A stretch of DNA of 64,000 nucleotides. Origin: Acanthamoeba lenticulata. Lineage: Eukaryota; Discosea; Longamoebia; Acanthamoebidae. Under the pieces are notes generated by a model that searched no databases, was not told the DNA's origin, and saw only the letters and a program-made list of their open reading frames with translations. Every line of letters starts with the position of its first letter. Positions within the stretch are counted from its first letter, which is position 1. The position numbers and the translations under genes are program-made. Shown here piece after piece: positions 10,381 to 56,313 of this stretch. The DNA lies in the NCBI GenBank assembly GCA_002179805.1, contig NAVB01000054.1:29542-93541 (forward strand). The letters are read 5' to 3'.

Positions 10381-13300
10381 TCAAAAGCATACAACCTTCT
10401 TAGGGAAGCCACTGATCTCCTCAGAGCCTGACTGAGAGCAGTACCACACATGCAGAAGATATTCGCCTGGGCTTGCCAGCACCACCTGGGCCATCGCAAT
10501 GTTTTTAGCCTCAATCATGGAGATGGCAATGTGGCGTCGAGACTTTGCCTCTCCTGAGCAGACAAAGACAAGTAGCTCGGAGATATTGAACTGTTGATCA
10601 ACTCGCCTGGGGGCAATTTTGAGGGTGAAACTGTGCCCCACTCTTGTCACAGATGGTACTCCGACGCCAAAGAAACCTGCAGTTCCTTTTCCCCATTAGT
10701 TAGTGGGCCTTGCTGTGTTCCGCCAAGAGGACGCACCCTTTGCTAGAAGGTGTTTGGCGATGGCTCGCAAGTCTTCTGCATGATCTGCGATACACTGCTG
10801 CGCAGCATCCTTGAGGAGCTGGAGATTGTGTGAGTCCGTGGCATCCAGAGGCAATGGCTGCGTGAGTTCCGGATTGAGACGGAAGTAGGGCACGCCGTCC
10901 TGCCTTGCTTTGGTCTGCAGGAGAGAGTAAGCCAGATCGGTGTGGATCACAGGATCAATAGGCTTACCTCTGCAGTCTTGTGCACAGCGGCGGTATCGGC
11001 AATGAAGGTGGCCAACCGGGAGAGGAGTGAGAAGAGGAACCTGTCTCTTCCAAGATCTGTGGCCTTTGTCAAACCTGTCCCTAGCGAGACAATGATGTCC
11101 ACCTTGCCTTGTGGACAGAGTTGGCTGGCTTCGTTCCAAGCGAATTGAGTTGGGTTGTTGGCCACTAAGCCACCATCTTCAAGCTTGTACTTGCCTATAG
11201 AACACTGGCATATTAGAAGTCAAGTTCTGATTCTGGTTGCTGGCTGATGGCGCACCAATCTTGAACGGAGCCAAGTACGTCGGAGCGGCGGAGGTGGCTC
11301 GAGCTGCTTGCCAGGCATACACGTTACCATTTGAGCCTGCCAACGAGGTGTAATTACGGAAGAGGTATGGATTCTGGCAATTTGTGGCCACCGTCAGCAC
11401 CTGTTTGACAAAAGGTCAGATGGCTCGCTCTCACACACGCGGAAGACCGAGGCAAGTAATCTGGACCTTAACGGTGCTTGGCTGATTGAGGCGACAGTTC
11501 CTCATGTGGTTTTTCAACAACCACAGGAGGCTTGTGTCAACGTAGCGGTAATGGCGGAAGATGAGAGAGAGAGTCTTGATGATCTCGCCACTGTAGAAGA
11601 TGTCGGGACCGTAGGTGGCGTAGAAATCTTCCATAAGCTTCAGAGGGAGCCCACAGTGGCCCACCCCCAGGGCAATAATTCCGCCAGTGCTGGTACCAGC
11701 TATGAAATCAAACAGGTCGGCCACCTGCATGGAATACGTGGTGAGGCCTCATCCAAACGGAACAACTTCTACTGTTAAACGGAAATAATGGTTCAGAGTA
11801 CCTGGCTTGATGTCACACGCTCAATCTCGTTGAGAAGGTATATTTCCAACAGCCCTCGAATTCCTCCGCCGTCCAAGGACAGCACTCTGGGGGTAAAGAA
11901 GGGCACTTCGCCTGAATTGGAGATTCATTAGTCTCACATCCACTGGCCACACCAAGTGTGAGGACAAAAAAGGCACCTGAGCTTGTTTGCCAGCGCCCGC
12001 ACGCTGGACAAGGCACCAGCTTGAGTTCGTCGCTGGAGATGTTGGTGCAGCACTCATGGCACAGTTGATGGCCGCACCATAGAGACTTGAGAGAGAACTT
12101 CATTTCGTTAAGCACGGTGGGCTTGCTGTGTAGGCACAGGCAGCAGCGTTTGTCCAGCTCGCGGGCGTAGGCCAGGTTGTACTTGCGCCGGATCACACCC
12201 CATAGATCGAGCAACTTTTGGTAGAGCCGCCGGACCGGAAAGTGCTGTCGTGGAGGGTGCAATCTCAGATAAGCTAACATCAATTTGACATAACTAAAGA
12301 CCTTTTTGGTCTCGGACCTTGTAATCAGCGCACAACCTGGCATACTGTTCATGAAGCAGAAGAGCTGAAAGTCCCTTGGTCGCAGCAGCTTTCTTGAATC
12401 TCTCTTTGGTGTCCGGGTCGTTCCTCCACCTCAATGCGTTCCCTGATAAGGTAGTGCGTGTGAGCATCAAGTGATTTAGCAATTCTATGCAGTACCTGTA
12501 AGCTCAATCATTGCTCGATGTTGATCATGTCCGGACCTGAGCTGCACACAAGTGTGCTTCTTCCCCTTCACGCTCTTGCAGGAGCCACAGGGGGCTAGTT
12601 GCTCTATTCGCTCAAGCAATTTCTCAAGTTCCTACCAAAAAGGCAAAAACTCAAAGTCATCAGGAGCTTCTTGCAAGAGAGACAATTGGTTGTGTTGTAC
12701 CACTTGAGGGTCGCCTGGATAGATGTTTGACAAAATGGCAAGAAATTCAGCTGCATGTGGACGGCAGCCGAAGAAGTCGTCCGCTTGGCGAGCCGAACAC
12801 CCATAGATGATCCGGAACAGCTGTTCACTGTGGTCAAAAGAGGAGTCAGGCGAACATTCATATCATTTAATGCACAGTCAGCAAAAAGGGGTGGGTCTAC
12901 GCTAGGGACAAGCTGCAGTCGTCCAGTTCAGTCCCTTGGGCAGTGAGGCATAAGGAGCTCACGTGAGCGTCATGTAGGTTTTCTATCACCTCTTGGACGC
13001 TGGTCAACCAAGCAGTGCCAGAAATTGAACAGTTGAACGTCTGCTTGTGCTGGTGGTGCGCCCTTACGAGCTGGGGAAGAAGCTCCTGTAGACATTACGA
13101 TATATCAGCCTCAAAAGCGAACAGGGCGGGGATATTTGAGAACACATGCCGAGAGTAGCGTAAGCTGTGCTTGAAAGTTGGGCATTTCCTGGTAGGGGAG
13201 CTCGATGCACTTGACTTGGTGAAAGCAGTCGCTGAGTAGGCCATCCGGGTCATGGTTGGTCAAGAACCTCTCGGTGAGTTCCTCCACGGTGCTAAGGTCG

Positions 13301-14098
13301 TCATTGCTGCTCTTGTTGGCAATGATCAAGAGCGAAGGCTGGGTGGCTAAGCTACCAACCATGCGACCAGCTTGCTTCGCTAGACCAGCTACATTGATGA
13401 AGCTCTGATTGACAGCCAAATTCTCAACCGTCACGTACACTAGGACGTCGCTGACTAGGTACGCCAGCCTGAAGGAGGAACCAAATTAAAAGGAGTGGGT
13501 AAATGCGGCCAGGTGGTGATCGGGTATGCATTACCGTGGCATAAAGAAGGACACAGCGGCGTTGCGTTGCTCCGCGTAGTCTCCTCCTTCCCTCGCCGAT
13601 TCCTGTTTGTTTGTTTGTTTGTTTGTTTTTTTTTTTTTTTGGTCAGACAAGACGCGCCATTAGTGGTGGCCTGGGAAAAGGAAGCAACTGCGTACATCGG
13701 CAATGGGACATCCCTTGGCGTTCGTGCCCTCCAAGTCCAGCATCACAACGTCTACTTCATTATTGAGGCGTGATGGATAGGCATTTACCCCAGCGGTTGT
13801 AGGTTGGAGTGTCACCCCACTCACTTGAGGTTGACGCTGCCTGCAAATAAAACCATTTGGTGAGGCTAAATGTGCCATGGGTGGTGGGCGGAGTATAAGA
13901 CCTTTCTTCGCCAAGAAGGCCCAAGATGAAGCTCTTTCCTGCATGTGTATCCCCGAAGAAGCTTACACACCCGAGGGGTGATTCCTTCACCCAAGACTTC
14001 CACTGCGCCCATGCTTCTTCATGGAGAGATAAGCCAAGGTTGGCGAAAAAGGCCAGCTTCGCTGGTAAGGTGTCCGCCTGCGCTTCGAGTTTTTCCAT
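10381..14098 (-). CDS. GBP-like GTPase - RING - patatin phospholipase fusion (gene A of cluster)
   Basis: A multi-exon gene starting at 14098 (MEKLEAQADTL). Domains in order: a large GTPase with P-loop GDTHAGKS (13931-13954), DLEGT as D-x-E-G (about 13730) and a NKSS block as probable G4; a helical segment; a Cys/His motif beginning APCGSCK (12541-12600); a RING-like finger (CCLCL...WCGHQLCHECC...CPAC, about 11990-12160); then a full patatin domain with DGGGIRG (about 11854-11873), nucleophile GTSTGG (about 11680-11697) and the DGG aspartate (11169-11177). A last exon, joined over an intron containing a CTAAC branch site, adds an Ig/filamin-like segment (SPGEYLLHVWY...EISGFPKKV) and stops at 10381. 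Patatins are Ser/Asp acyl hydrolases of membrane lipids. All catalytic residues are present. It lies 224 bp downstream of gene B on the same strand and lacks B-boxes. An immune-type effector role is inference. Confidence 0.82.
13604..13640. repeat. (TTTG)n plus T-run in gene A intron
   Basis: Five tandem tttg units followed by a run of about 16-20 T on the plus strand, within an intron of the patatin-type GTPase gene. Run length is unstable by nature. Confidence 0.75.
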
Positions 14099-14321
14099 TT
14101 GCCTCGCGCCAAAGCTTCCGCTCTCTTTTTATCAGCTCGCCGAGCAACAGTCACTGTGTGGCCACAGTCACTGTCGCCATGGCAATAGCAATGCCTAGTT
14201 ACACGATTGCAAGGAAACTAGACTCAGAGCAACTGTAAATCGGCCAAGTCCTCACGTGTGCGCGGATAGGTTCAAATTTATACGACTGCAAAAAATCTAT
14301 TTAAGGAAAAATTTGCTGCGC

Positions 14322-17300
14322 TCAAGTGCGGGAAGTAACAACGTGCAAGAAGCGCAGCGTGGGCGTCTTGGTCTCGCAGTCAAGCATTACGTCAGGGTAG
14401 GCGTCAGTGCTTTGGCTGTCTTGCTTCAGGTAGTGGTTGAGTACTTGGGCGGCGCTGCTTCGGGACTTAGCCTCTACCGGCCAACAACTTGTAATCATCT
14501 CCGCATATTGAGCAGGGACGTGGGCTGCGATGGTTGGACGCTCGTTACGCTGTGCTTTCGCCATGACCTCAGCTGGCTTATCGCCTGGCCACAGCTCGCG
14601 GCCGTGTGCTGCCTCGTAGATTAAAACACCATACGCGTACATGTCCACGGCTGTGGATAGTTGGAAGTCGAACAGCTCCGGGGCCATGTACTGCACTGTT
14701 AAGACGAAAAATGGAGTCACTGCCACACACAAGGCCGCACTAGGCACATCTTCCATGATTCTTACCTGTACCGCGAATCTTCTTGATTTCTCTGCTCTCC
14801 TTGTCCATCACCCTCTTGGCAATACCGAAGTCGGTAAGCTTGAACACCAGCTTTCCCTCACGTCCACGATCGACCTGCCAGACTGTGTCAGCCTAAGGAA
14901 GTCAACAAGGCGCCATAGGACATACCAAGATGTTGGATAGTTTAACGTCACAGTGGACAACGCCGGTCTGGTGGAGAAAGCTCAAAGCTTTCGCCACATG
15001 TTTCGCAAGCCTGATCACCACAACACATGAGAACCATAAATAACATTTCATTTTCATGGGATCTGTCGTGCTTGCCTGTGCAGATTGGTTTGCCAATCCT
15101 TTCCAAACTCGCCAGTACGAATCATCTGACGAGCATCTCCTCCAGGGATGAAGGGCAGCACCAAGCCCAGTCGGTCACCCTGGGCTGGGTCTTTCCAGTA
15201 GCCCACAGGGCACATGATGTGCTTGTGGCTAAGTTGCCTGCAACAAGGGAGACGTACATCAAATAAGTTGAGAACGAAACAAGCATTGAGCATTGTGTCC
15301 ATAAAAGTACTTCATCATTGTGGCTTCCTTCCAGAACGCTTTCTGGGACTCGAAGTTGTGGATCATGGCCACCTTTATAGCCCACTGTGTTGACGGTTCG
15401 TTCTTCCTCTCAGCCAAATAAACGTTGGCGTAGCTTCCGCTCCCAATGTTCTTCCCGAGAGTGAGCCCTGTGATTTGATGCTAATCACAAACAGCAGTTA
15501 GCGGAAGCGGTCTATTTTTCAGGATGAGGGCAGAAGTACCAGGACACTCTCTTGATCGTTTTTTAGCTCGCCTTTCAAACAAATGGGGCATTTAATGAGA
15601 GATATGGTCTCTCCTGTTTGCGAGAAGTAGTTCCTCGCTTCCTTCTTCATCAGGCAATAGACTGCGCAGGGTTGGCACAGTAGCTTGCACTTACTAACAA
15701 AAAAACCAAGCCTTGAGTCATTGAGAGGGACAAAGAGAAAGTTGTAGGCAGGAACCCTGTACCAAGAGGCGGCCACCTGACGCGGCTTCAGCAGGCAGAA
15801 GAGGCAGTTCAGATCCTCCGGCAATTGAACCTTGGCTTTACCTCTTTGCGGGATGCCTTTTAGCACGGAGAAGGCTACTGGCCGGATCTCTGTTTCCTGG
15901 GGTCAAGTGATTGTGAGCATTGTGCCACTCTTGTTAGCAGTATTGCTAGTTGAAAACGGGAGTGGAACCTGCTGCATCTGGGCGTAGATGGTGTCAAAGT
16001 GGTTTTGGCTGAACGTTGGAGGGGTCTCCCAAGTGCCACCCCACTCAACGGTCATTGAAATGTTAATGTTGAACAACTGGAAGCACTTGATCGCTGAGTG
16101 CAGGAAAGAGTTAGCCCGCCAAAAAGAAATAAAAAAAGAGAAAAAACAGCAAAATTCTTACCTCGAACAAAAAAAGAGTCTCCAGCCATCCTACGCGTGA
16201 CGAGAGGGCGTGAGATATGGGTCCTACAGTCCTGGTGGGTGCTGTTTGTACGGGTGCAGTAAATTCTCTTCCCGTCCTTGGTAGTCCCCGTGTGTTCTGC
16301 CCAGCAAGGACTTAGCATCTGCATTTGGAGAGAGAGAGAGAATTAAGACACTCGAGTGGGGAAGAGGCAGATCAAGCATGGCACCTGTAGCGCTTCGCTG
16401 AGCTTGTTCCCTGCCTGTTTGACCAGAGGGTCGTTAGCCAGGGACCGCTTCTCTCCCTGTCACATTGGTTAGTTAGCTGTGACCTACAGTAGTCTTTAAC
16501 CAACCACTTGCGAAGAGTAAAGGACTCACGTGTTGTTGCTTGCTCTCTTCTGCCTTGACAAGTGAGGTAAACACATGCCAGGTCTGTTTTTCGAAGCTCA
16601 TGTAGGTATACCGGGACGGGTGGTAGTCTAAGAGTTTCATCAACAGCCAGCTGTGCAGAACATCATCAGCGCGACAAGTTGAAGCAGAACGTATGGTGGA
16701 GGAAAAGAAACGAACGTTTGGTGAGCAATGGGGTTGTTGAAGGTTATTAACTTCATGTCGATATCTCCCCGGCGTAGTCCGCTCTGGTGGGTCTCAGGGA
16801 ACGCCAGCCGATCGACAGCGTGCTGGAGGAGTTTACACCAGCTGTGCTCGCTCAAGAGGTGCTTGTGCGTGGTCAGTTGTTGGTACTGCTGGGCTGTGAC
16901 TGACTTGAGTAACTTGTCAAAGCTCTGTATCTGTTGTTGGTGTAAGCTTGGCCAGTCGTCTATTTGGTGATGGAGAAAGACTCAAGCTGTAAGGTCCACC
17001 AAACAAGCTACAGTCAAGAGTGTGGGTACATACTGTATGGAACTGAGATTACATTGACCGATGCGAAGTGGTTGAGCAAATTCCTTTTGGGGTCGTGGGT
17101 ATTAAGAAAAGAAGTTGTGCAATCATCGACATCGAAGATAGCATCACTTTTTCCACACTTGTTGCGGACGATGATAAGCGCTGGTTTTCGTCCTGCGTCG
17201 GTAACCAAGGTAGTGGCAGACGACTGCGCGAATTCCATGGCCTTCTTCCACAACCGTCACGCCATAATTGTGAGCAGCCAAAAATATATGGGGTATCTTG

Positions 17301-18461
17301 GTGTTTGTTTACCTTGTTGGCATGTTCAGCTACAGCTAGATCACCTTGCAGTACGTAGACCAGTATGTCCGCCACAAAATAAGCCAAGCTAGGGAACACC
17401 TTGTCTACCACTAGATTTCGCTGCTTCGCCACCCCTTGTTGATCGTCTGGCCTCTTTAATCGGTCCCACCGTATGCCCTGTTATCCCGCATACTCATGAT
17501 CAGCAAGTTCAAAAGAAATTAATACCAAACAAAAAAGTTGTGAGTCAATCATGGGTGGCGGTTGAGTGTACCCGTGGTAGAATGTTGCTCGCCGAGAAGC
17601 CTTCCATATCAAGAAGGCGAAGGTTGCCCACGGTCCATGGATTGGGGACATGGTAAAGATGAATGTCGGAAGTGGTAGCCGCGTGGTCCTTTGGCAGCGC
17701 CACCATGGCCCTGTTTAGATTATTAATATTGTCCGCGTAACAGGCAAGCCGTGACTGTCTGCGAGGGGTGGTGCGCCTTTTTCCCAAGCTGTGGAGGTCC
17801 ATAAAGGCGTTGATCATGGTCGACTTGCCTGCGTGCGTGGCCCCCGTAAAGCACACCACAGGCGAGAATACTGAGTGCTTGGAGCGTGTGAGACATCGCT
17901 CAAAGGTTTTTGTCGTGAGAGCAACTTGAAACTTTTCGTTGATGTGCACCAGTTCCGTCTGAGACAACCAAAAAAAAAGCTCCCGATCAGCACCACACAG
18001 AGGCACGGAGAAGAGAGAAGGTCACCTGCTCATGCTGGTAGATTTTATCCACCTCATCGAAGGTGGGGGCCACGTCGCCAGCTGCCCTCCCAAATAAAAT
18101 GGTAAATGCGGAGCTTGTAGAGACGAGAGAGGAAAGTGAAGAGAGTACTTTCACTGGCAACGCGCAAAAGAAACCAGGTGTGCCCTCGCCTAGTTGCGCC
18201 AGTGTGTGTGGACACTTTGCAATGGGCACAGAACCCGACTTCGCAGCTCTCACACCAATACATGGCGTGCAGGGTGCATTCGGTGCAGTCCATGGGCTGG
18301 TCGATGGTTCGCGTCTGGAGGTTGAGTTGCGCTTTTGTGTGGTTCTTGAGCTTCCCAACGCGGTGCAGTCGCGGCCAGCACTCATCGCAGTAGTCAGCCT
18401 CGCACTCGTCGCAGTGCCACACCGCTTCTTCGTTCTGGCACCCCTCGCAGCTACTTGCCAT
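14322..18461 (-). CDS. B-box - GBP-like GTPase - RING - protein kinase fusion (gene B of cluster)
   Basis: Starts at 18461 (MASSCEGCQNEE) with two consecutive B-box-type zinc fingers (LHRVGKLKNH and a second Cys/His set). The GTPase follows: P-loop GATHAGKS (17820-17846), a candidate switch Thr in ATTSDIHLYH, LLDMEGF as D-x-E-G (about 17600), VRNKCG as probable G4. Next come a helical region, a Cys/His motif (SPCWAEH...C...H, 16200-16320), a RING-like finger (CLFC...CKLLCQPC...KCPIC, about 15540-15800) and a complete kinase: glycine loop GSGSYANVY (about 15421-15444), AIK lysine (about 15373), HCDVKLSN catalytic loop (14947-14955), DFG (about 14826-14834), MAPELF. HRD is HCD, but the catalytic Asp and Lys are intact, so it is predicted active, probably Ser/Thr. 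It is head-to-head with gene C. Exon borders are numerous and only partly fixed. Confidence 0.82.
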
Positions 18462-18720
18462 CGTGCCAAAGAGTAGTCTAGCTTGGTGTGATTGCAGAAA
18501 TTACACAAAAGAAGAAGAAACAAGGGAACCATAAACTGCGGGTGTAACTGGTTTACCGGTGTCAGAAGAACGTCACCGGTTTACGACCGCAACACTGGGC
18601 AACAAGCGTTGTCCGGGGCCACCTGCAGCACCGGTACCGGTTGCCTCCTCATCTCCTCCGCCGCGATACTTATTTCCACACCAGCCCAAACCAGCGAGAA
18701 GACAGGACCAAGCAGCAACA
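18462..18720. promoter_or_regulatory. Divergent promoter of genes B and C
   Basis: A 259-bp spacer between two divergent ATG codons of the paralogous GTPase genes. It contains a CAC(C)GGT-type repeated core: ACCGGT-containing strings near 18555-18580 and 18632-18640 (gtttaccggtgt, tcaccggttta, gcaccggtaccggttg). These could be factor sites or chance. The arrangement suggests co-expression. Confidence 0.5.
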
Positions 18721-21700
18721 ATGTCCATCTGCTGCGATTGTGAGCGGGAATCCGCCCAGTGGAGTTGCACGTTGTGTGACGTCGAGTTGTGCGAAGGGTG
18801 TTGGGTGCAGCTTCACCGTGTAGGTAAGCTGAAAGTCCACCCGAAGCTCAGCCTCTCTACCAGTCAGGCGACGGACCTCACGGCGGAGGAGCAGGCCATG
18901 AAAAGGCAGGGCTGCTCAACCTGCGAGCGACTCATCGCCGCTCTGTGGTGTCGACAGTGTAAGGCTGCCTTTTGTGCGCACTGCCACACGACGGCAGAAC
19001 CTGAACCGCACACCCTCCTGCCCATCGCAAGCGGTTCGCCTCACCGACTATTTTCTATTTTCCGCATTTTACCGTAAGCTTTTTGCTAACCTTGCCTTGC
19101 TTGACTTTAGCTGCCGACACTCCAGAGGCTAGCTCCCAAATTGGTTCGTTGCTTGCCACCCGCTCGCTTCAGGTACATGTGCCTTGTCCAGTGAGTTGAC
19201 GCCGCGTCCCTGATAACCAACTTTATTTGTTTCAGACCGAGCTCGTCCATGTAAACGAACGGTTTCAGGTGGATTTGACGGCAAAGAGATTTTCGGCCTT
19301 GATGAGTTCGTCCGTGGACTACGCCTGCTCCCCCGTGATATGCTTCACTGGAGCCACACACGCAGGCAAGTCGTCCATGATCAACTCCTTCATGACCTAC
19401 CATCGCCAAGAGCCACCGTGCGACCTCCCTTCTTTTTCTTTTGCAACCTTGCCCATCCTCTCCTACATGACCGTGTTAACCACCGCTGGTCCACAGGGCT
19501 CTTGTATCTGTTCCAGGCGACCTGGCTCCCACAACTGCCGACATACATCTTTACCAACTGCAAAATCCATGGACCACAGGGAATTTGCGTCTGTTGGACA
19601 TGGAAGGCTTTTCCGCGGCTGTCCAACTCCCTCGGGTATGCTCTTTGAGGACATAGAGCGTACTGTTGTTCACTCACACCTCATGTGTAGGGCCTGAGAT
19701 GGGACCTTGTCAAGGAGGAGGATCGTGAAGGCGCCGCCCTGGAGAGGAACAAGGTCGTGGATCAACAGTACCCGCGCTTGGCCTATTTTATCTCGGATGT
19801 GCTGGTCTATGTTGTTCAGGGAGATCTGGCTGTTGCAGACCACGCACGAACGGTAAGAAACTCTCATTCCTCCTTTAGCACTAGTCTATGCACTTCTTCC
19901 TGATCAGCGTTGTGAGCTCCAGGCCATACGGTTTGCACAGCAGGCCACGATTGGTGTCAGGCAAGGTGCGCGAAAGCCTGCGCTAATTCTGATTCGAAAC
20001 AAATGCGGCCGGGAGGACGTAATCATGGACGTCAAGAAGTGCACTTCCCAGTTCCTCGACATTCACGACCCCGAGCAGCAGTTAGGCGCCATCTACTCGT
20101 CAGTGTCCGTGCTCACCATGCCTCTAGGTACGCAAATATCGGACTTTGTCACTCACTCAGCATTAGGGTTGTGCACCAACTAAAGTTATGTATCCCAGAG
20201 GACTATCCAGAGCTGTACTGCGCCCAACTGGGTGCATTCGTGGAGCTGCTGAGAGAAACCGTTGAGAAGCAGAACAAGTTCTTGAGGCAAAACCAAATGA
20301 TGCTGAGCGAGCACAGATGGTGTCGCCTGGTGGCCCAAGCCGTTGAGAGCCTCAACGGAACACTAGATGGAGGGGCCATCAGTATGCGGATCATTGAACC
20401 TTTTGATCCGATAGCAACCAAAGTGTGCGTTTTTCTCTACGAAGTTCTCTCCGTTCCATTGGATTTGTGCTGAACCATAACACATAGGTGGCGGTTCCTA
20501 AACCTGTTCAAACTGGAAGTGAAACCGGCCGGATACCGCAGCTTGGTCCATAAAGCCATCACCATCTTCACCGCTCTAGTATTGGCAGAAGAACGCAAGC
20601 AGGTAGGTGTTCCTCTGTGGGTTAAAGGGAAATGTAACGCCCTGCAGACATTCACTCCTTGTCAGGTAAACGGGAGAAGCATGGCAAACGACCCAAGAAT
20701 TCTACAGGCTCTCGAGGAGTTGGGAAGACATTTGAAGGTATGTCGGGCACTTTCATGACGCTGCGCTGTCTGTGACCACTAAGCATGCTACGTATAGAAC
20801 AGAGCTCCATGCACTGCGGAGAAAAACGGGGTCCGCTGTGGTCTAAACGTGCACAATCACGGCAACTGCCATGCTGCTGAATCGCAACCAATACGAGAGT
20901 TGGTGCAAAAAGGTGAGAACCTTTTCCTCTACCGTTTGCCTAAGGTATCTAAAAATTCTCATCCACATTAACAGTGGTTACGTTTTGGGTGCTCCGCCAG
21001 GATGATCACTGGCCCGGATCTGTGGAGCCTCTTCCAGCCATTGACATCACTCAAATGTATACTACGCAGTATAGGAATCTGACGGAGGTACTTCTTTTGA
21101 TAGATACTCAGCATGAAGTGAATCTTAATCGCCACTATCCTCAGCAGGAATCATCCTTGCCGAAGGTGTTCCACTGGGTGATCGGAGAGTTAGCGGACAG
21201 CTCCACTGGTCCTAGGCTACGCAAGGAGAAAACCTGCCCTTTCTGCCTGGAGAATGAGGCAAACGGAGCGAGCTACCACTGGTACTGTCTACTCTGAAAC
21301 TGGTGCCATGGCTACTAACAAGAGCGTTCCCCTTCAAGTGGCTTGGCCCTGTGCCGCTTCTGCTCCGAAGTTTTCCACACCCACAGGATCCCATGTCCGC
21401 TTTGTACGGAAAGCTGCAGGCTCTCAGGGAGAAGGGTATATAATTCTCGCTGGTGTCACCCTTCGGATTTTTCAGAATAATTCTTGTGTTGCAATAGTCT
21501 GCAGGTCATTTCAAGGTGCTTGGCGGAGAGTTCCCAACAATGCAAGGACAAACAATGGTGACTGTATGGGAACAGTGCTCACCGCGGTTCTGGGACAACG
21601 CTCAAATTTGGGGGTAAGGTCTCAGCGTGCAACTCTTGGCTGTCAGATGGCGACTTACCCTATCACTCTACTCAGCGCCGTGCCAAGAAATCCCAGCACC

Positions 21701-22771
21701 ATCGAATTGTTTTCGGTGTGGCAACCTGCCTGGCAACCTTACCGGCTGGGCTTGGTGATGGAACACACAAACGGGGGTACTCTAAGAGACTGGATCATCA
21801 ACGGGCACTATGCCCCCAGCTGGCAGACTAACACGCGCATGTACGCTTCACAGTTCATTGTTGACTTACCATGGGCAATCGCATGACTCACCTACCTCCT
21901 TCTCTCCAGTTTAATCCAAAGCTTAAGCTATGCGCTCAAAACCTTGCACGCCAGCAACATAGTGCACTGCGGTGTCACGTTGTCCAACATAATGGTACCA
22001 AGAGCGCGCCCCTGGCATACCCCCCCCCCATACATTAACAACAAAGATTACAACAGGTCCACCACTCGTACAATGATGTCAGTTTCAAATTAGCCGGCTT
22101 TACAAATGCCTACCTGATCGAACAGGGCTATACTACGGAAGAGGCCCCCGTGATCACTGGAAATGGTGCGGTCTTCAAACTCTTTCCATCTCTTGGAGTT
22201 CTTTCTCCTTACCCTGCTCGCAGTCCAGTACATGGCACCAGAGCTGTTCACTACGTTCCGTGTCTCTAAAGCGGTGGACATCTACGCATTTGGAGTTCTT
22301 CTCTTCGAAGCTGTGCATGCGCGAGAGCCGTGGCCGATGACAAGCGACGCTGATGTTGTGCGCAAGAACACCAGGAGAGAGAAGTTGGCCTTTGGGACGC
22401 ACATACCAGCTACCATCAAGAAGCTCATCTCCAGGTGTCGAAAGAAGCCTAAGAACCGACCAACTGCAGAGGCTCTGCTCAGCAGTGGAGACCTCGAGTT
22501 CAGTACCTACCAAGAGTATCCTGACAAGCCTGCGTTTGCACCGGAAGGTTGTACAACTCTTAGCAAGTGCCCTCTCTACATGAAGAAGAAGAAGCCCAAA
22601 CCGGAAGTCGCGAGGAGCACCAGCAACGTGGAGCCGGAGATCATTCCTTCTGCCGAGGAAGCCAGCCCGACGCCCTGGCTGCCCGAACCATCAAACTTAT
22701 CTTCACCGCGTTCCAGGCGTGAAGACTTCTTTCCATGTGTTAGGCTAGTGCCACAGGCTTCCCAGCCTTGA
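18721..22771 (+). CDS. B-box - GBP-like GTPase - RING - pseudokinase fusion (gene C of cluster)
   Basis: Same layout as gene B. Two B-boxes (18721-19030; LHRVGKLKVH), GTPase with P-loop GATHAGKS (19351-19377), LLDMEGF (19594-19612) and IRNKCG (19994-20008), a helical region, the Cys/His motif (APC...C...H...H, 20800-20882) and a RING-like finger (CPFC...HCGLALCRFC...CPLC, 21233-21420). A kinase-like domain follows to about 22480: RLGLVMEHTNGGTL, VQYMAPELF and VDIYAFGVLLFEA align with gene B. The catalytic residues are lost: no glycine loop, the AIK lysine is replaced (TMVTVWE), the HRD-type loop reads HCGVTLSN (21964-21972, Asp to Gly) and DFG is AGF (22093-22101). It is therefore predicted to be a pseudokinase. 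A Pro/Ser-rich tail of about 80 residues ends at 22771. Frame was checked across the kinase exons. Confidence 0.82.
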
Positions 22772-28700: not shown

Positions 28701-31421
28701 TGCGACTTGTGGCTTTTTCGGCGTGGCACAATGCAGGCGCACCAGGCGTCGCTGCGCATCCTGGAAGAGATCAAGACCGGCAAGATACTGCAGCTGTCAA
28801 GCAGCCCCGAGATCGCGCACTCGCTCAAGATGGGCCTCTCCAGTTCGCCCGATGACCAGCCGCACCCGGCATCTGCGGCGTCGCCGCCAGTGGCGACGAC
28901 AAAGGTGACGGCAGCAGACGACGTCGCAGCCACGGCGCATGATGACCCATCTCGCTCGCCGGCCAACAGTCGGATCAACCTGGACGACCATGAGGACACG
29001 ACGTACGCCGTTGGGTGATGTCAAAGCCCTCGTCTCAAACGACTCACCATCCTGTCCCTTGTGCTGCGCAGGACGGACGAGTTTACAGTGGAGATTGAGG
29101 GCCAGCTGCGGATTCTGCTCATCTCCAAGCGCTACGTCGTCGAAGCTGACGTCACCACGGGCAGGGACGTGGTGTCACACCAGGCCAAGTACATCACGTC
29201 CGTCCAGAGCCTCGCCAGTACGCCTCGTCTCAAATTGATTGTTTTTACTCTTTTCTCTTTTCTTTTTTATTTTATTGTTTTTTTTTGTTTTGTTTTTGTT
29301 CTTGTTTTCATTTATGTTTCCTTTACAAAAAATTATTGACGCGGGGGCTACAGTGGGCGGACGCCCTGCGGTGCGGGTCGAGTACGCACCGCCGCGAGCG
29401 GGCATGGAACTGCGCACCGACGTGCAGGACACCGCTATTTACGTGCTCGACGAGGCCGACGAACGGTTCGCGCTTCTGCTCTCCTCATGGTCCGTCCTTG
29501 TCGGCCGACTGACGCTCATGGGGTGGTGGTACGAGCAGAGACCGGCTGGCCGACCTGCTGCAGGGCTTCGTGAACCAGAACAGCCAGGCGCGAGTCCAGT
29601 GCATGCGCTGCCTCAAGATCTACGACCGGCTGGCCGGGATGCAGACGTGCCGGTCGTGCGGCAGCACTTACCTCGTCCACTACGAGGAAGAGAAGAAGCC
29701 CGTCGCCGCGGCGGCGACGGTACCGCGCCACTCGATCTCCTCTTCGATCTCGGCCGCGGCCTCGTCGTCGGCCTCGACATTGGCGCAGTCGCTCACCGGA
29801 GCCGCGGCCACCGTGTTTTCCGGCGCGGCCGATCTGCTGACGACTGGGGCCACCGAGCTCGTCGGCCTGGCGCGAGGCGAGTCTCTCGCGTCGGCGGCCG
29901 CCATTGCCTCAACGCCAGCGGCTGCGGCAGCTGCGGCAGGATCGGCGGCGGGGTCGGTCAAGAGCGTGCCGATGCAAGAGGACTTCTCGAGCGAGACCAT
30001 GGACGTCAATCTCCAGCTCCACCTTCGACTCACCTTCTTTCGCGTACGCGCTCTTCCAAGTCATCGGCCACTTCTACCGACGCTGACCCACTACGGTCCG
30101 TCATTTGCTTGACTCTCGTGGGCCGTGGGCCACTCGCACGCACAGGGAGGCGCGGACGAGCAGCTGGTCTACTTTTTCACGTCGGTCTTCCTGCCCTACG
30201 GCGCTCGGGCCCACGAGGAGACGTACGTGCGCCGGGCTTCGAGCTGGCCCGAAACTCTGATGGGGACTATAAGCAATCAATCACTCACAAACACACAACA
30301 TACAGGGTGGGACACCTGCTGCTCACGACACAGAACCTGTACATCCTCCAGCGCAAGCGGCGCCCGACCGAGTCCGATCCGGGCTTCGCGCTGGTGGCCG
30401 AGTACCGCCTGTCGCAGATCCGACGGCTCGTGATCGGCCTCTTTTACCAGTACTTCCGGGTCGAGGCCGACGAGCGGCAGGCCTTTGTGTTCCTCCCCAA
30501 GGAGCACGCCCGCACGCACGCCTTCATCGACCTCTTCCTTCAGTCCCGTACCGTTGCCTTCTCCTGCCATCAATTGACCGCGCTCGCTTGCTGGCTAATG
30601 AACGGAGTTGACCGTGGCGTTGCCCTTTGCCCAGTCTTGGCCGCGGAGGAAAAGGCGGCGGAGCCCATCGAGGCGGTGCACTACAACTCAGAGACGTTGG
30701 CCAACATGCAGACGCAGCTGCTATACCGCTTCCCCGACAAGACGCTGCACGTCTACGCGCTGCTCTACCACCGGTTGCCCTCCGCCCGGCCCAGGAGCAT
30801 GCTACTCTCCTCGGCCCTCGCCGCCACTCGAGGTAGCCCTCGCGCCCATTTGTGGCCGCAGCCGCGGCGGTCCTGCCAAACTCACACGTGCCATGTGAGG
30901 GACGTCTGCAGACATGGGCGGGTGGATGACGCGAGCTCTGATCGTCACGGGCACGCACATCGTGCTTGCCACGGAGGACTACAGCAGGTGGCCGGCGTTG
31001 CACTATCCATCGGTCAAGCCGCCGTCGTCGCCCCAGTTTGAGCTCGTCTCGGCGCACGAGGTGGCTGAGTTGGTCTCCATGGTAAGAGCCCCCAAAGGAG
31101 ACGACGGACTGAACGAGATTCGTTAACTTGATTGTGTCCGCCATCGGGGCACAACGTGCAGGATCTTGATGCACAAGACACCACTGAGTTCAAGCTTGTT
31201 TTTGAGAAGGAGAGCACAGGCGCGCGGGCGACTTTGCAGCTTAAAACAGGTACAGCGGCTTGTCGTGCAGAGTCAGACCACTTGGTAGCTAATTTTTTGT
31301 CGTCTCCTCTTCTGCAGAACATGAGAATGAACGATCGAAGTTGTCGGTGTCGTTGGCCAAGATGTGGGAGAGCCTTTTCAAGCTGCCCCTTCCCATCAAG
31401 TACTACAACATCCCTGTCTGA
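25705..31421 (+). CDS. STK11IP (LIP1)-like leucine-rich-repeat protein
   Basis: A long gene of many exons; the first two are 25705-25765 and 25848-25940. The N-terminus (KENEAKLREGSMVLPL...LELLNDAMHEF) matches the start of serine/threonine kinase 11-interacting proteins. It is followed by SLQYLEV, then leucine-rich repeats (26520-27010; SYNQLVVMDESL, LSLLDLGFNKI, LKTLVLRHNQL, LERLDLGGNLI) with an LRR cap (YRRDVVTHFL). A Ser/Pro/Ala-rich middle with a short Gln run (28500-28525) follows. The C-terminal part has a CMRC...CRSCGS zinc ribbon (29599-29670) and PH-like segments (GHLLLTTQNLYILQRKRR..., 30300-30540), ending IKYYNIPV at 31421. In animals STK11IP binds LKB1 and sits on lysosome/endosome membranes; the role here is inferred. 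Some introns are very T-rich (29221-29345). Confidence 0.78.
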
Positions 31422-36368: not shown

Positions 36369-39300
36369 ATGAGCAGCAACAACACTTACACGAAGCCCCA
36401 CTCGGACTTCTCGTTTCCCTCCATGATCCTCTCCAACTGGAAGGTACCCAGCAGTCTCCACCGTGTGAATAAGAAACGAAATATATTTATTTATCTAGGT
36501 TAGACAATTAAATTAAATAAAAGAATAAAAACACTAAAATATGTCTCGTGCACAGGACTTGACCATCACATGGGCCGGACCTCGAGATAACCCGAACCAA
36601 AAGCCCATCCGAGCGCCCGGCGTGACCGGCATGAGGCGCGCCGAGAACAACTGGGCCAAGTCGGCCATCAACGAGGAGAGCTTCGCCCTCCGCTTCAACG
36701 GCGTCCTCTACAGCGATCCCACGCTCGTACGTGCTCGGCTTTCTGCTCTCTGGCCGTCGTGGCCAAGACCTCGCTCTTGCTCACAACTGGCGTTGGCCGA
36801 TCGTGCAGTGGGACGGCCGCGTGTTCCTCAAAGAGACGGGCCAGTTTGTGAACCACATCGACACGTATGACGGCAAGGCGCTGCCATTCACTATGACACG
36901 GTCGTACTACATGCCCCCACAGGAGGAGTTCTACATCGTCCACTACGCGGTCGAACTCCCCGAATCCTTCTCCGCCACACAGCCCGTCGAGTACGCAGCA
37001 GTTTTTTTTTTTGCTTTTTACAATTCATTTTTTCTTAAGGTGGCAGCTGACCGAATGCTGACGTCATTTGGCCTCTGGTCGGGTAGTGTGCAGCTGTTGG
37101 ACTATGTGGTGACGGAGCAGAGCGGCGACCAGCACGTGAAGCAGTGGGGTTGGTTCAACACCTACGAGAACATGCCGCTGTGGATGGTCGACGGGACCAA
37201 GAGCAACCAGGGCTACTTTGCCATGGGCACGTGGGACGCCAACGAGGTGTCCTCCTACCAGCTGGGCCACGCTTCTGACGCCACGTCGCCCCTGGCCCAG
37301 TTCATCCACAAGGCCGACGGCCGGCTGGGCAAGGAAATCGTGGCCGAGGAGCCCCAGGTCTCGCTGGGCCTCGTCGCCTCGGCCAGCCTGGCCGCCCAGC
37401 CCACGCACCAGCCGCGCCGGTTCGACTTCTACGTCGTCCGGACGCTGCACACCGCCTACGAGAAGGCCGTCGCGGTCTGCAAGCGCGCCCTCGCCCAGCC
37501 GCCGGCCTATTGGATCGATCACACGCAGACGGCCTACGCCTACTTCCTGGCCAAGGGCAAGCAGCCCACCTTTGGTTCTGGCCAGGCCGAGCACGAGCTG
37601 CTGTACAAGCACTCGGTCCTCATGATGAAGAACGCGCAGAACCCGACCGTCGGCTGCATCGTGGCCTCCTTCCACCCGGCCTACCTCTACAAGACGTGGA
37701 TGCGCGACGGCATGTTCGCCGCCATGATCTTTGACGCCGCCGGCTACCACGACGAAGCTCGCGCCTTCTTCGTCTGGGCCGCTTCATGCCACCTCCGCTG
37801 GGGCCGCCAGGGCTTCCACACTTGCTACGTATGTGTTTCCTCGTCGGAATCGACGCCATCGTTTTCGTTTTTCATTCTTTGGCTGCTCACACTCATCATT
37901 TATTTGTTCGTCAATTTCTTGCAGTCATACTGGACGGGCGAGCCAGTGGGGTTCGTCGATCCGCAGTTTGACTCGGCTGGCGCGTTCCTCGTTGGCGTCT
38001 ACCACCACTATCGCGTACGACAATGATTCTGCTCCTCTTCGATTGTCCAATGATAAATTGATGTCTCATGGCCGTCTTCGTTCTTTGTTCGTTTTTCGTT
38101 CTTTAGTTGACCAAGTGCACGTCCTTCCTGGAGCGCGTCAAGCACGGCGTCCGCGACATTGAGAACTTCCTCGGCTACGGCGTCGGCATGCACGGCTTCG
38201 CGCCCGCCGACTATTCGATCTGGGAGGGTAAGCCTCCTTCCCTTCCCTTCCCTTCCTCCTCTTGATCGTTGTCCTCACCGTCATCATCGTCTTCATCATT
38301 GTCGAAACAGAGTCGTCGCACCCGCACACGGGCGGCAACATGCCGACGGCCTACTTCACGTTCACGCAGGCGATGGCGGCCGCCGGCCTGGAGGCCGCGG
38401 GCCAGCTCGAGGAGCTGTGGGGCGACCGCGACCGCGCGCGGTTCATGCGGGACCGCGCCCGGCAGGTGCGGGAGGCCATCGAGACCCACCTGTGGAAGCG
38501 CGACGAGACCGACCCGACCGGGCGCGGCGGCTATTATATGCGCTGCATCGCCTCGACCGACGGCGCCACCGACGAGCGCCTCGACGGCTCCTCGGTGGCC
38601 GTCGTCTATCTGGGCGTGGGCGACCCGGACCGCGCCCTGTACCACTTGGCCCACGTCCGCCGGGAGCTCACCCAGCGCGGTTACGGCATCGGCCGCTATG
38701 CGGGCGACCCGTTCTTCTACGACTCGATCTTCTCGCCTGGCGGCAAGGAGGCCGGCGGCCCGACCCCGCCGTGGGGTGTCGTCACCATGTTCACGGCCTT
38801 TGCCGAGCTCGAGTACGAGCGCCTTCTGGACGAGCAGAAGAACCGGACGACCGCCGCCACCCACATCCCCGTCATGGTACGTTTCCGCACAGGCGCCGCG
38901 TGTGGGCCGTGTTGTGGGCTGACGTGGGCTGATGGGCAGGAGGGATGTAAGGGCAAGGAGGCCGCTTCGGAGGAGATCGACGCCGTGGTGGAGCTGCCGC
39001 CGCTCGTCTCGGCCACGAGCTCAACAACAGCAACGGCGCTGACGAAGAAGGAGAGCAAGACGCCGATCGACTATGAGGCCCTCATGCTCAAGGAGACCCC
39101 GCGCGAGGTCGTGCGCAAGCGATTGCAGTGGATGGTGGACCACGCCGCGCCGGGCCAGATGCCCGTGGGCGAGGCCATCTGCGGCGTGACGGGCAACTAC
39201 GTCGCCTCGTCGACGCCCAACATCTACGAATACGCCGGCGTTTACATTTGGGTAAAGCACCTCTCCTGACCCGTCTCTCTCCTCTCTACACGCCCAGCCA

Positions 39301-47790: not shown

Positions 47791-50700
47791 TTAGTGGGGC
47801 GGGTCGGTGAGGATCGCGTAGTGGGACGGGAACCAGCCGCTCTGCCGAAAAGTAGACGTCAAGCGTATGAGCAAGACAGCCAAATGTCTACGTTTGTAGG
47901 GCGCAGACACGAACCTTGGGCTTCTTGGGTGTTGTCCTCTTCTTCTTTTTGGTGGTGAGGAGCGTGCCAAAGAGCAGGCCCTCCTCCTCGCGCATGTCGG
48001 TCACGTAGATGAGCGCGCCCTTCTTGAAGCTCAGCTGCTGGTCCTTGGACCGGCCCCGGAGGGAGTGGATGGCGCGCACGTAGCCGCTCTCCTGGTTGAG
48101 CACAGCCTGGCGGACGGCCGCCTCGCTCGTGTCGACGCCGCCCTCACCCAGCCGCGTTCGTTCTTTGGCGATCCGCCGCGTCACGCGCTGCTGTCGCTTT
48201 CGCTCGATCTGCTCGCGGCCCCACCGCAACGTCATGCGCTTGCTGGAGACGGCGCCGACGTTGTTGTTGACGTCTCGTCGGCCTTCGGCGCCCGCCTCCG
48301 AGGCGGCGAAGCGCGAGGCCTCGAGAGGATCCTTGAAGTTGCCCTGCTCGTCGCACAGAGCGACGTGGGAGGCCGGGACGAGGCCCTTGGCCCCGTCCGG
48401 CTTCTCGGCCTCCCACCAGCCGCTGTCGTCCTCGCCGTCATAGTCGAGAAGAAGGACGAGCTCGCCCGGCCGCAGGCTCAGCTCGCCCTCCTCATGGGCC
48501 ACGTAGGCGCCGAGCGCCTTGACCCACACTTTGTCCTCGTCCTCTTCGCCGTCACCGTCGATCTCGTCGTCACTCTCGTCGTCATCGTCGCAGGCGTCCT
48601 CGTCGTCTTCGTCCGACGCGGCGCCCGGCGGGCGGCGCAGCATGTCGGGCTTCTGGCCAGCCTGGTTGCGCTGCAGCAGGTGCGCCATCCGCGCGTGGAA
48701 GGAGCCGCTGAAGTTGGCCATCACCGGGCCGCCGCGCACGGCCGGCGCCTCTGTGGGCGATGGCTGCGCGGAGAAGGCCACCTGGTGCTGATGGTCGCTC
48801 CGGCGAGGCGAGATCGACGCCGGCGCCGAGCTGAGCGACGACGTCGTCGTCATTGTCGATATGGTTGGCATCGTGGGCGGCAATGGGGACGGGCGCGGAA
48901 CGGGAGACATCGTGTGCCGCGGCGCGGGGACGGGCGGCGTGCGGGCCGACGGCGCCGGAACCGGCGCGTCGGCCGAGACCTCCTGCTGGGCGGTGGGCTT
49001 GGGCGGCGGAACTGGCCGCCCGAACCGCTGCGGCGGCTGCGGCTGAGACGTCGATCTCGAGGTCGTGGCGGTACTGGTGTTCGCGCTTGTGCTCGCGCTG
49101 GCGCTGCTGGTGCGCGGGGAAAGCGGGACCGGGAGGCTGATGATGGGCGGTGTCATCTGGAATGTAGGCAACATTAATGGGCGCGAGGCCGAGAGCGGCT
49201 GCGTAGCGGCGCGCGCCAGCGGCCTCCGCGCCGCAGGGGGTTGGACCGGCGTCGGCGCAAATCCGGGCGAGTGCGTCGTCGCGGATGAGGATGAGGATGC
49301 TGACGTTAAGGTCGAAGATGATGAGGAAGAAGGCTCTCCATCGCGTGGCGTTGTGACGGGCGTGGCGTCGCTGCTGCTGGTGGTAGAGGTGGAGTCCTCT
49401 TCGGTGACGTCGTCCTCGGTGGACGATCGATCGTCGTCGGCAATGGGTTGGCCAGTGGCGTCGACCTCCTCGACGTACTGGAAGGGCACGAAGCCGAACC
49501 GACCGCCATAGGCGGCCTCCAGCCAGCCGTTGCCCGTTTCGCCGCCCTTGACGATCCACCCAGCCTGTGTGTGTGCGCGCGATCACGATTTCTTAAGTCA
49601 GGGCCAAGATCGAAAAAAGCGAAGAAAAGAACGAACAAAGCGACGGGGGAGGGGGGACCTGGATCGTCAGCTCCGAGGCATTGGAGCCAGTGAAGTCGTA
49701 AAGGACTCGGTAGTAGCGGGTAAGCCCGGCGCCCTCCTCCTCCTCCTTCTCGCCTTCCTTCTCTGCCTGGGTCTGGGCCTGCGCCAGCGCAAGCCTCTGG
49801 GCCTCCTCCGCAGCGGCAATCTGACGCGCGAGCTCATCGCGCCGCTCCATCAGCACGCGTAGGTCGTCGGCCGATCGCGCCGTCCTGTCTGCCACGTGCG
49901 TCGCGTCGTGCACGCCGACGCCGACGCCGTCGGTACTCGCCGAGATGGACCGATAGGGCGAGACATGGCCGCCGCCGGCCGAGATGGCCCGCCGGCTGAC
50001 CTCCTCGGGATGCCGCACCATCAGCGGGAGCGGGTGGCTGTGGTGCAGCGATGACTGTGGCTTGTAGGGCTCCTGTTGCTGCGACTGGTACTGCTGCTGC
50101 TGGTACTGCGGCTGGAGCCGTAACGAAGTCTTTTGCTGCTTGAAGGACTGGAGGATCAGCTGCCTGTGCTGCTGCTGCGGCGAAGAGGAAGAGTTTTCCT
50201 GCTTGGGCTGAGGCTGCGACTGCGACCTCGACCTCAATTGCTGGTGTTGCTGCTGTTGCTGCTGGTGGTATGGCTGCTGCTGCGGCTGTTGTGGTTGCTG
50301 TTGTGCGCGAGCCTCTTCTTGGAGCTGCAGTCGGGACACGGTCTGTGGCTGCGGCTGTGGTTGCGGCTGGAAGGTCTCGGGCTGTCGCTGCGGCTGCGCG
50401 GGCCGCGGCGGCTCCGGCTGCACCACATGGTCGGCCTGCTCGAGGCGCCGAATAAAGGTCCCCAGCTTGGCGCTGATGTCACCCACCTGGGCCTGCACGT
50501 CGTCGCTGCTCGTGGCGGCGGCCGGCGGCAACGGCGCGGCAATGCTGTCCGAGGTAGGTGGCCGCGGCTCGGCGTCCCGGAGCGACGTCGAGGGCGAGCT
50601 CGAAGGCGAGCTGAGAGGCGACGACCGGAGGGTCGGCGGCGGCAGCGGCGCGCCGGGCACCTTCGTGTAGGCCGGGGGCGGCGTCGGCCGCGGCGGCCTC

Positions 50701-54844: not shown

Positions 54845-55793
54845 ATGGGAAATAAGAACTCCAACTCCATCGCGGCCACCAACGTTGGGATTAGCCCAAA
54901 GATCCCAATGAGCAAGATACGAGACGAATCAGAAACGGGAGAGCTCGAGTTGGATACTACATCGATGGTCCTCCAAAGGCAAAAGATACCACTTCAGTTC
55001 CGAGACTATCACGAATTTATGATCTACGAGCTAGTGAGGAGTAACATGGACAGGGAAGAAGGGCTGGGGGCGTTGGCTGTCCTGCCGGATGAATGCCTGC
55101 TTCACGTCCTCTCTTTTTTGGAGCTCTCCGACATCGGTAACATATCATGTACGAGTAAGCTGCTCTTCTTCCTGGGGCGAGACGATTCGCTGTGGAAGCT
55201 CCAGTACCGGCGGGGGTTGCGACGAGTCAATTTCTACCGGAGCGAGAGCGCGCGAGGCTTCGAAGACGACATCTCCTTCAATTTCTTCAAGGACGCGAAA
55301 GGGAAGCAAAGGAGGAAGGAAAGGAAGTGCGGTAAATGGAAGGCGGTCTGCAAGATCAACCTGGTGACTTTGCCGAATGGCGAGAGCGTCATCTTGACCG
55401 AGCAGCTGCTTGGCTGGCCGCTTCGCCAGGTGAATGAGTTGCTGGGCGCCTGCGATGAGGTGACCCCCGTCGGCCGCAGCAGTGCCTACTACTATTATCA
55501 CGCTCTTGGCATCACCGTCTGTCTTGAGGAAGACCGTATGTTCACCTCCCATTTCCACTTTCCTACCCGTTCCTCTTCTTTCGATTTAGAAGCATTTATT
55601 CCGAGATTTATTTTTTGTTATGCTTAACCTGTCAGATATCTAGTATCTGTACTGTGGTTGAACGCTCACCTTATGCTGATATACCTTCTTTTCTTGGTCG
55701 TCGGTCCATGCAGGAGTGACTTCGATCTTGAGGAACATCCCGCTGGATAGCTGCACTGGTCCCGCCTACGCCAAGATCGTGCCCAGGCGCTAA
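54845..55793 (+). CDS. F-box protein with N-myristoylation signal
   Basis: Two exons (54845-55535, 55714-55793) give 256 aa. The start MGNKNSNS fits the N-myristoylation consensus (Gly2, Ser6), suggesting membrane attachment. An F-box follows at about residues 78-125 (LAVLPDECLLHVLSFLELSD, IGNISCTSKLLFFLGRDDSL, WKLQYRRG), which should bind Skp1 of SCF ubiquitin ligases. The region after it is basic (DAKGKQRRKERKCGKWKAV) and then unrecognised; no LRR, WD40 or kelch repeats are present. A membrane-tethered F-box subunit would act on substrates at the plasma or endosomal membrane; this is inferred. The short last exon (about 25 residues) ends IVPRR. Confidence 0.82.
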
Positions 55794-56313
55794 CAGCTGC
55801 GGTAGTTCGTTCATCACTTGCCCGCCCTCGCCGATGAGCCTTTCCTCGTCCAGATAGCTTATGGCTTTTCCTGGTGTGGCGTGGTGGCATTGTCACCAGG
55901 CAGGCGAGAGAGAAGACAGAGGCCGTGCCCTCGAGGAGAGACCCTCATCACTCCACTAAAACACAAACTATTTATTCAAACTGGAGGCTAGCGTGGCGGG
56001 ACAACGAGGAAAGCTTAACAGTGCAAGGAGGAGAAGAGAGGGCCCATCCAGCGGCGGGTCGTGTGGTGGGCGCGCCAGGCATGCCTGTGTGTACAAAAAA
56101 ACATTCCAAACACGTAAAAAAAGATCTGTCTGGACACCGGCTGTGCGACGCACAGATGGACCATCTGCCTCAAGGCGAAGCTGTTCGCCTAACTGTTCGT
56201 GGTGGTTGGTAGAAAATTGAATTAAAGCTGAGCACGCGCAACTGTTAGCCAGCGACGAGGTCGTCCGGTGGTTGTACTCGGCCGTGCTTGAGGAGAAAGA
56301 GGAAGGAAGGAAG
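55794..56313. other. Intergenic region, no gene seen
   Basis: 3' flank of the F-box gene and 5' flank of the LRR-phosphatase gene. Frames at 55666-55896 (minus), 55874-56212 (plus) and the long minus frame 55968-56711 (antisense to the next gene) show no domains. Confidence 0.4.

Follow-up and report, generated by a model that had tools for sequence, protein, structure and literature searches.

Three neighbouring genes (genes 1, 2 and 3) in a 64-kb stretch of the Acanthamoeba lenticulata genome (contig NAVB01000054.1; the whole stretch analysed is called the window) are built as one chassis with different C-terminal tails. The chassis comprises an atlastin/GBP-like GTPase, a helical part, a Cys/His motif and a RING-like finger, and is followed by a patatin lipase in gene 1, a kinase in gene 2 and a predicted pseudokinase in gene 3. 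This domain architecture is well supported, and we class the genes as a new family within a general kind that is already known, in which a nucleotide switch is combined with exchangeable effectors. Judging from our literature searches, the family, in which an atlastin/GBP-like GTPase and zinc fingers of the ubiquitin type share one chain with swappable enzyme tails, has not been described. There is an even chance that the family acts as a switch driven by GTP, which assembles and then fires the effector at its C-terminus, and perhaps does so in cell-autonomous defence. A serious rival to the defence role is ordinary signalling or membrane traffic.

Gene models and shared architecture

A first-pass annotation of the window had proposed the limits of the three genes, their shared parts, their tails and B-boxes at the start of two of them. 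The limits were confirmed by joining the exons by hand, with splice sites picked by eye and partly via alignment among the genes, which gave three open reading frames (ORFs) with zero internal stops (Table 1). The shared GTPase, helical part, Cys/His motif and finger were recovered through invariant motifs, profiles and alignment, and the tails through Pfam and their catalytic motifs. The proposal of one chassis with exchangeable C-terminal partners likewise holds for genes 1 to 3, based on Pfam and alignment. Among the 48 introns, 47 are of the GT-AG and one of the GC-AG type. Three introns measure 33–37 nt, the others 45–94 nt. The GC fraction is 0.54–0.56 at codon position 1, 0.41–0.45 at position 2 and 0.63–0.65 at position 3.

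Genes 2 and 3 are 58% identical in the GTPase (140/243 residues) and 36% in the kinase (86/242), compared with 31% in the finger (13/42) and 22% in the Cys/His motif (7/32). Their introns correspond, with 16 of 17 pairs in phase and at most 3 alignment columns apart, and the last pair in phase and 7 columns apart. As the alignment of the genes had partly steered which splice sites were chosen, this agreement is supportive and not independent.

Table 1. Features of the three genes, with positions in the window and residues of the joined products
Feature	Residues	Position	Strand	Remarks
Gene 1		10381..14098	-	15 exons, 941 aa; GTPase, helical, Cys/His, RING, patatin, C-terminal stretch
GTPase	7-249	13159..14080	-	P-loop GDTHAGKS 13931-13954, DLEG 13726-13737, NK 13306-13320
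Cys/His motif	374-400	12515..12595	-	
RING	482-531	11996..12145	-	
Patatin lipase	545-841	10744..11891	-	GTSTGG 11680-11697, EDGGL 11166-11180
C-terminal stretch		10384..10740	-	~100 aa after patatin; no Pfam match
Gene 2		14322..18461	-	18 exons, 1001 aa; B-box x2, GTPase, helical, Cys/His, RING-like, kinase
B-boxes	1-43 and 57-95	18177..18461	-	Pfam
GTPase	121-372	16925..18028	-	P-loop GATHAGKS 17821-17844, DMEG 17599-17610, NK 17152-17166
Cys/His motif	509-540	16217..16312	-	
RING-like finger	631-685	15573..15806	-	
Kinase	702-969	14421..15465	-	HCD 14941-14961, DFG 14824-14835
Gap between start codons of genes 2 and 3		18462..18720	.	259 bp, four ACCGGT palindromes
Gene 3		18721..22771	+	18 exons, 991 aa; B-box x2, GTPase, helical, Cys/His, RING-like, pseudokinase (predicted)
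B-boxes	1-42 and 64-100	18721..19020	+	Pfam
GTPase	125-371	19170..20233	+	P-loop GATHAGKS 19350-19373, DMEG 19597-19608, NK 19995-20009
Cys/His motif	500-523	20804..20875	+	
RING-like finger	604-643	21235..21411	+	
Pseudokinase (predicted)	652-899	21498..22492	+	HCG 21962-21979, AGF 22087-22104

GTPase domain

The motifs GxTHAGKS, DxEG and NK show no variation across the aligned genes 1 to 3, and the GTPase motifs are kept in all eight aligned family sequences, namely five genes of the A. lenticulata genome and three foreign proteins described below. A GTPase profile around the THAGKS motif was found in genes 2 and 3, whose isolated GTPase stretches pass the Pfam cut-off of MMR_HSR1 (E 1.1e-4 and 2.5e-5, respectively). 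The GTPase stretch of gene 1, scanned alone, has zero Pfam matches. Gene 1 is tied to the others by the genome search, with matches to a further family member on contig C1002 (E 1.7e-14) and to gene 2 (E 8e-4), and by alignment.

The annotation had called the domain GBP/atlastin-like. This label is weakly backed by a PDB search with the profile of the eight sequences, which returned 68 matches at E up to 10 and is headed by atlastin-1 (E 9.4e-4), closely followed by the GTPase Der (1.1e-3) and then by more atlastin-1 entries. Lower matches include Sey1 (0.006), HflX (0.03), GBP5 (0.05) and IRG proteins (0.09 and up). The profile points weakly to atlastin as the nearest relative of the family GTPase. 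Alignment with the two GBPs of the same genome using hhalign gave 92%, in register in the first half only (P-loop to DxEG), compared with 0.1% for a profilin control. Strict GBP membership was rejected. The Pfam GBP model (PF02263) has five matches genome-wide, all on contig C607, and none in the products of genes 1 to 3, and the G4 motif is NK in 8/8 family sequences versus RD in 2/2 GBPs of the genome. Because of the missing Pfam match and the NK in G4, the domain is an atlastin/GBP-like GTPase and not a GBP by the usual marks. The region C607:11277-14675 carries two ordinary GBP-type GTPase genes, which are divergent and ~2 kb apart.

B-boxes, Cys/His motif and RING-like finger

The two genes starting with B-boxes are genes 2 and 3. 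In Pfam scans of the whole products, PF22586 matches gene 2 above the cut-off (E 4.9e-7) and PF00643 matches gene 3 with E 8.3e-5, at 23.1 bits versus a cut-off of 24.1. The same scan detects no B-box in the gene 1 product. The Cys/His motif is located between the helical part and the finger. Within it, six sequences keep a Pro-Cys pair and, further on, one Cys and one His without variation, and the motif probably binds zinc.

The profile searches proposed in the annotation recovered the B-boxes, the patatin and the kinase domains, and the RING stayed below the Pfam cut-offs in genes 1 to 3, with zf-RING_4 in gene 1 as the best match (E 0.016). A chassis profile of three sequences found the RINGs of TRIM proteins in the PDB (TRIM32, E 1.4e-6). 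Gene 1 has a regular finger, whereas those of genes 2 and 3 deviate, with C-x-C or H-C where C-x-H is usual. Given these irregular fingers and no Pfam RING at cut-off, the label RING-like is appropriate.

Enzymatic tails

The tail of gene 1 matches the Pfam model Patatin (E 2.4e-20, whole product) and retains the catalytic motifs DGGGIRG, GTSTGG and EDGGL, as aligned with iPLA2beta. In the PDB it matches iPLA2beta (6e-21), entries named Patatin (4e-18) and phospholipases of bacterial cyclic oligonucleotide-based antiphage signalling systems (CBASS), including CapV (5e-17 to 1.5e-15). Phospholipase effector models of PADLOC, which we take to be CBASS models, span nearly the whole domain with a best E of 1e-50. 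Further patatin-like places in the genome are located on contigs C753 (E 1.7e-8) and C200 (E 0.002).

The kinase of gene 2 (Pfam Pkinase, E 5.7e-45, whole product) retains the catalytic residues of AIK, HCD and DFG. As Cys replaces the Arg of HRD, it is a non-RD kinase. With a strict cut-off of 1e-20, its one PDB match is CTR1 (9e-21), presumably a TKL kinase. Non-RD kinases are associated with innate immune signalling across kingdoms, according to PMC8463890.

The kinase-like domain of gene 3 (Pfam Pkinase, E 3.4e-24, whole product) lacks the glycine loop and the Lys of AIK, and contains HCG for HxD and GFT for DFG. Judged by these residues, it is a pseudokinase that has lost its catalytic residues. 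Genes 2 and 3 begin back to back, 259 bp apart, so that an active-type kinase gene and the pseudokinase gene form a head-to-head pair. The 64-kb window contains 12 copies of ACCGGT, versus a mean of 12.9 expected by chance, and 4 of the 12 are found in the gap between the two genes. This cluster is possibly a shared regulatory site, a lead only, as the motif was chosen after looking. The gap copies span 18555-18641, and a fifth copy occurs at 22920, just behind gene 3.

Further members in the A. lenticulata genome

The profilin of the genome (48.5 Mb, 1825 contigs) is that of an Acanthamoeba: of its 28 PDB matches the top three are profilins IA, I and II of A. castellanii (E 4e-67 or lower), well ahead of the fourth at 1.6e-30. 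Protein searches and a motif scan of this genome led to two more family members, on contigs C1002 and C2, giving five in total. The first lies on the minus strand of a 17,739-base contig and contains the GTPase, the Cys/His motif, a RING above the Pfam cut-off (PF13920, E 6.1e-7), a second RING assigned by eye, and a kinase-like domain (Pfam E 5e-12) with HKN for HRD and SFG for DFG. The second (C2:1-3000, minus strand) runs off the contig end before its tail. It comprises the GTPase and the Cys/His motif, preceded by an N-terminal stretch that appears SAM-like by eye. Intron positions common to gene 1, the two additional members and genes 2/3 are few and were not counted as proof.

The degenerate DNA pattern for T-H-[A/S]-G-K-[S/T] occurs at 14 places in the genome, compared with 8 for a reversed control. 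Three of these are genes 1 to 3, one is the C2 member, and ten are without family features on translation. One of these ten, on contig C737, was read further and dropped by eye. The P-loop of the C1002 member is split by an intron and was thus missed by the DNA pattern, so that other split genes could be missed too. For three more places, on contigs C378, C1188 and C204, similarity to the query was limited to its RING stretch.

Foreign relatives

The most complete foreign relative is the EukProt transcript protein P0001, a complete ORF of 1558 aa that is matched by the gene 2 chassis with E 4e-23 and 29% identity across 77% of the query. Its order is GTPase (GATHVGKS, DIEG, HNKC), Cys/His motif, RING, a long middle, a second RING and a kinase. 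The RING is above the Pfam cut-off, and the kinase is intact and of the RD type (HRD, DFG). This protein supports the reading of GTPase, RING and effector as parts of one polypeptide, as a single transcript ORF has the same build. A tblastn comparison shows P0001 and the C1002 member to be colinear from GTPase to kinase on one strand, with residues 669-1239 unmatched. The C1002 member is tentatively read as one gene because of this colinearity. As the kinase of P0001 is intact, the motifs of the C1002 kinase were apparently lost in this genome.

Two shorter proteins, P0002 (eukprot) and P0003 (lgn), are both 71% identical to P0001 in the GTPase (193/272 and 163/230, respectively). The predicted structure of P0002, based on a three-row alignment, has a mean predicted local distance difference test (pLDDT) score of 39, too poor to use. 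By source, the three foreign relatives divide into two from eukprot and one from lgn. In the protein database, the gene 2 chassis found one relative among 3678 candidates, and the gene 1 chassis none among the best 8000 candidates scored. A six-row alignment, in a search that left out proteins as long as P0001, found two among its best 8000 candidates scored. The chassis alignment found no relative among viral contigs, where 18 stretches fit the pattern and none was upheld by tblastn. In a tree of the eight GTPase sequences, only the groupings of genes 2 and 3 and of P0001 to P0003 are settled, and gene 1 and the C1002 and C2 members are on long branches.

Comparison with known systems

The better PDB matches of the family GTPase include, alongside the GTPase Der, those to atlastin, Sey1 and GBP (GB1/RHD3), and the part N-terminal of the P-loop aligns with the latter as well. 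Unlike these proteins, the family has its GTPase fused to a finger and an enzyme. RNF112 (neurolastin, ZNF179) resembles the family in that a single chain holds both an atlastin-like GTPase and a RING, as described in passages of PMC12012479. Its RING is N-terminal, ahead of the GTPase, whereas the finger of the family follows the GTPase. RNF112 is not known to have a B-box, Cys/His motif or enzymatic tail. TRIM proteins share B-boxes with genes 2 and 3, and the chassis has a TRIM-like RING profile. However, TRIM proteins are ordered RING, B-box and coiled coil, while the order here is B-box, GTPase and RING, followed by enzymatic tails. TRIM23 contains an ARF GTPase, which is of another kind than that of the family.

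In Roco proteins, such as LRRK2 and Dictyostelium Roco4, a GTPase precedes a kinase in one chain. The family differs in the zinc parts between GTPase and tail, and in the lipase tail of gene 1, and no Pfam match to the Roc-COR pair was found at E 1 in the products of genes 1 to 3. Fungal NLR/STAND proteins combine a nucleotide switch with patatin or kinase partners. Switch and exchangeable effector are common to both, but in the family the switch is a GTPase and the effector is C-terminal. No NACHT or NB-ARC domain was matched by Pfam in the family products and stretches scanned. The CBASS phospholipases (CapV) are similar to the gene 1 patatin by PDB match, although iPLA2beta matches better. 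They also differ from it, as the lipase of gene 1 is fused to the GTPase chassis.

The annotation knew of no described family with this domain order, which is compatible with the literature searches. Among the papers listed, from a collection lacking preprints and most subscription journals, no title or abstract beginning describes this domain combination. In the paper on the A. castellanii genome (PMC4053784), mention is made of an LRR-ROCO GTPase, an NB-ARC-TPR protein and two homologues of interferon-inducible GTPases, and its main text does not contain the words 'RING', 'patatin' or 'B-box'. The same words are missing from the main text of a transcriptome paper on Legionella-infected A. 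castellanii (PMC7468528). A review of dynamin-family GTPases in Dictyostelium (PMC8565484) names one GBP, and its passages include no such fusion.

Proposed mechanism and alternatives

The atlastin family works through GTP-driven dimerisation. We infer a switch in which the GTPase would drive the helical part, the Cys/His motif and the RING-like finger, with the C-terminus as an interchangeable output. On GTP binding, the GTPases would dimerise or assemble on a target, which would bring the tails together and turn them on, leading to lipase attack on membranes or to kinase signalling. The finger could add ubiquitin in members in which it is intact, and the B-boxes of genes 2 and 3 may help in recognition or assembly. 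The pseudokinase of gene 3 might work with, or restrain, the active kinase of its head-to-head neighbour. The trigger would be an intruder in the cell, making this a cell-autonomous defence, which is the least sure step. What makes a defence purpose attractive is that immune modules are known to feature swapped outputs, CapV-like phospholipases and non-RD kinases. In its most far-reaching form, the proposal is a tentative and rather doubtful one. The genes would represent an undescribed class of intracellular immune switch, present in amoebae and in one or more further eukaryotes, with the GTPase-zinc-RING chassis playing the NLR part. A CBASS-like phospholipase, an active non-RD kinase and dead kinases would be the outputs, and kinase and pseudokinase would act like a paired receptor, one as executor and the other as sensor or brake.

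Passages of PMC12012479 are both favourable and unfavourable to the GTP-driven switch: RNF112 forms dimers via the GTPase domain, with a change of shape when GTP is hydrolysed, and its E3 ligase and GTPase activities are reported to be unrelated, which speaks against a GTPase steering the finger. Other observations weigh in the same unfavourable direction. The fingers of genes 2 and 3 may, from their irregular residues, be inactive. P0002, although marked complete, ends soon past the GTPase and P0003 stops within it, so that the whole build is present in one of three foreign proteins. The GTPase tree is silent on the number of tail changes. Finally, the ordinary-looking kinase of P0001 matches many defence kinase models of PADLOC (mad6, E 2.4e-49), an unspecific result. 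A PADLOC match is consequently no proof of a defence origin or role for the gene 1 lipase.

An ordinary role, in which a GTPase-regulated kinase or lipase of Roco (LRRK-type) or atlastin/RNF112-like character serves signalling or membrane traffic with no special part in defence, is a quite plausible alternative, if somewhat short of probable. The nearest GTPase structures are those of atlastin and Sey1, which shape the endoplasmic reticulum, and the closest match of the gene 1 lipase is iPLA2beta, an enzyme that has a part in lipid maintenance too. The RD motif of the P0001 kinase is normal, and the family is small, its five members in 48.5 Mb being unlike the large and variable sets of immune receptors. 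Atlastin, however, lacks finger, B-boxes and swapped tails, the Roc-COR domains of the Roco type are absent from the Pfam scan of genes 1 to 3, and no transmembrane segment or membrane anchor turned up, although no search was aimed at one.

The proteins might also be TRIM-like ubiquitin ligases primarily, in which the GTPase sets assembly and the kinase or lipase parts are docking or regulatory domains. The B-boxes, the match of the chassis profile to TRIM RINGs and the RINGs above cut-off in P0001 and the C1002 member would fit, but the retained lipase and kinase motifs in genes 1 and 2, the irregular fingers in genes 2 and 3 and a domain order different from that of TRIM proteins make this improbable. 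It is very improbable that separate neighbouring genes were fused artificially by the choice of splice sites. Such an artefact could arise from sites picked by eye and with alignment as a guide, and the C1002 model leaves the middle of the gene unjoined and has one join in its kinase part that is not a real splice site. Yet the same order occurs within one transcript ORF in P0001, the C1002 member is colinear with it, and exons cross the domain borders free of stops in three genes.

If the defence reading is true, this amoeba would possess a counterpart of NLRs built on a GTPase, one of whose outputs is a phospholipase similar to that of bacterial CBASS. Whether or not it is true, the family offers defined proteins to ask whether GTP-driven assembly switches on a lipase or kinase, and a defined pair to ask what a linked pseudokinase does to its active partner.

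Other open reading frames in the window

The scan of the window covered 20 of 50 ORFs of 200 aa or more. In one ORF, at 56272-58113, leucine-rich repeats are joined to a stretch that falls just below the dual-specificity phosphatase cut-off. ORFs at 42-1199, 29239-31041, 36731-39269, 47888-49489 and 54845-55627 match RhoGAP, PLEKHM2 PH, glycosyl hydrolase family 15, SH3 and F-box.

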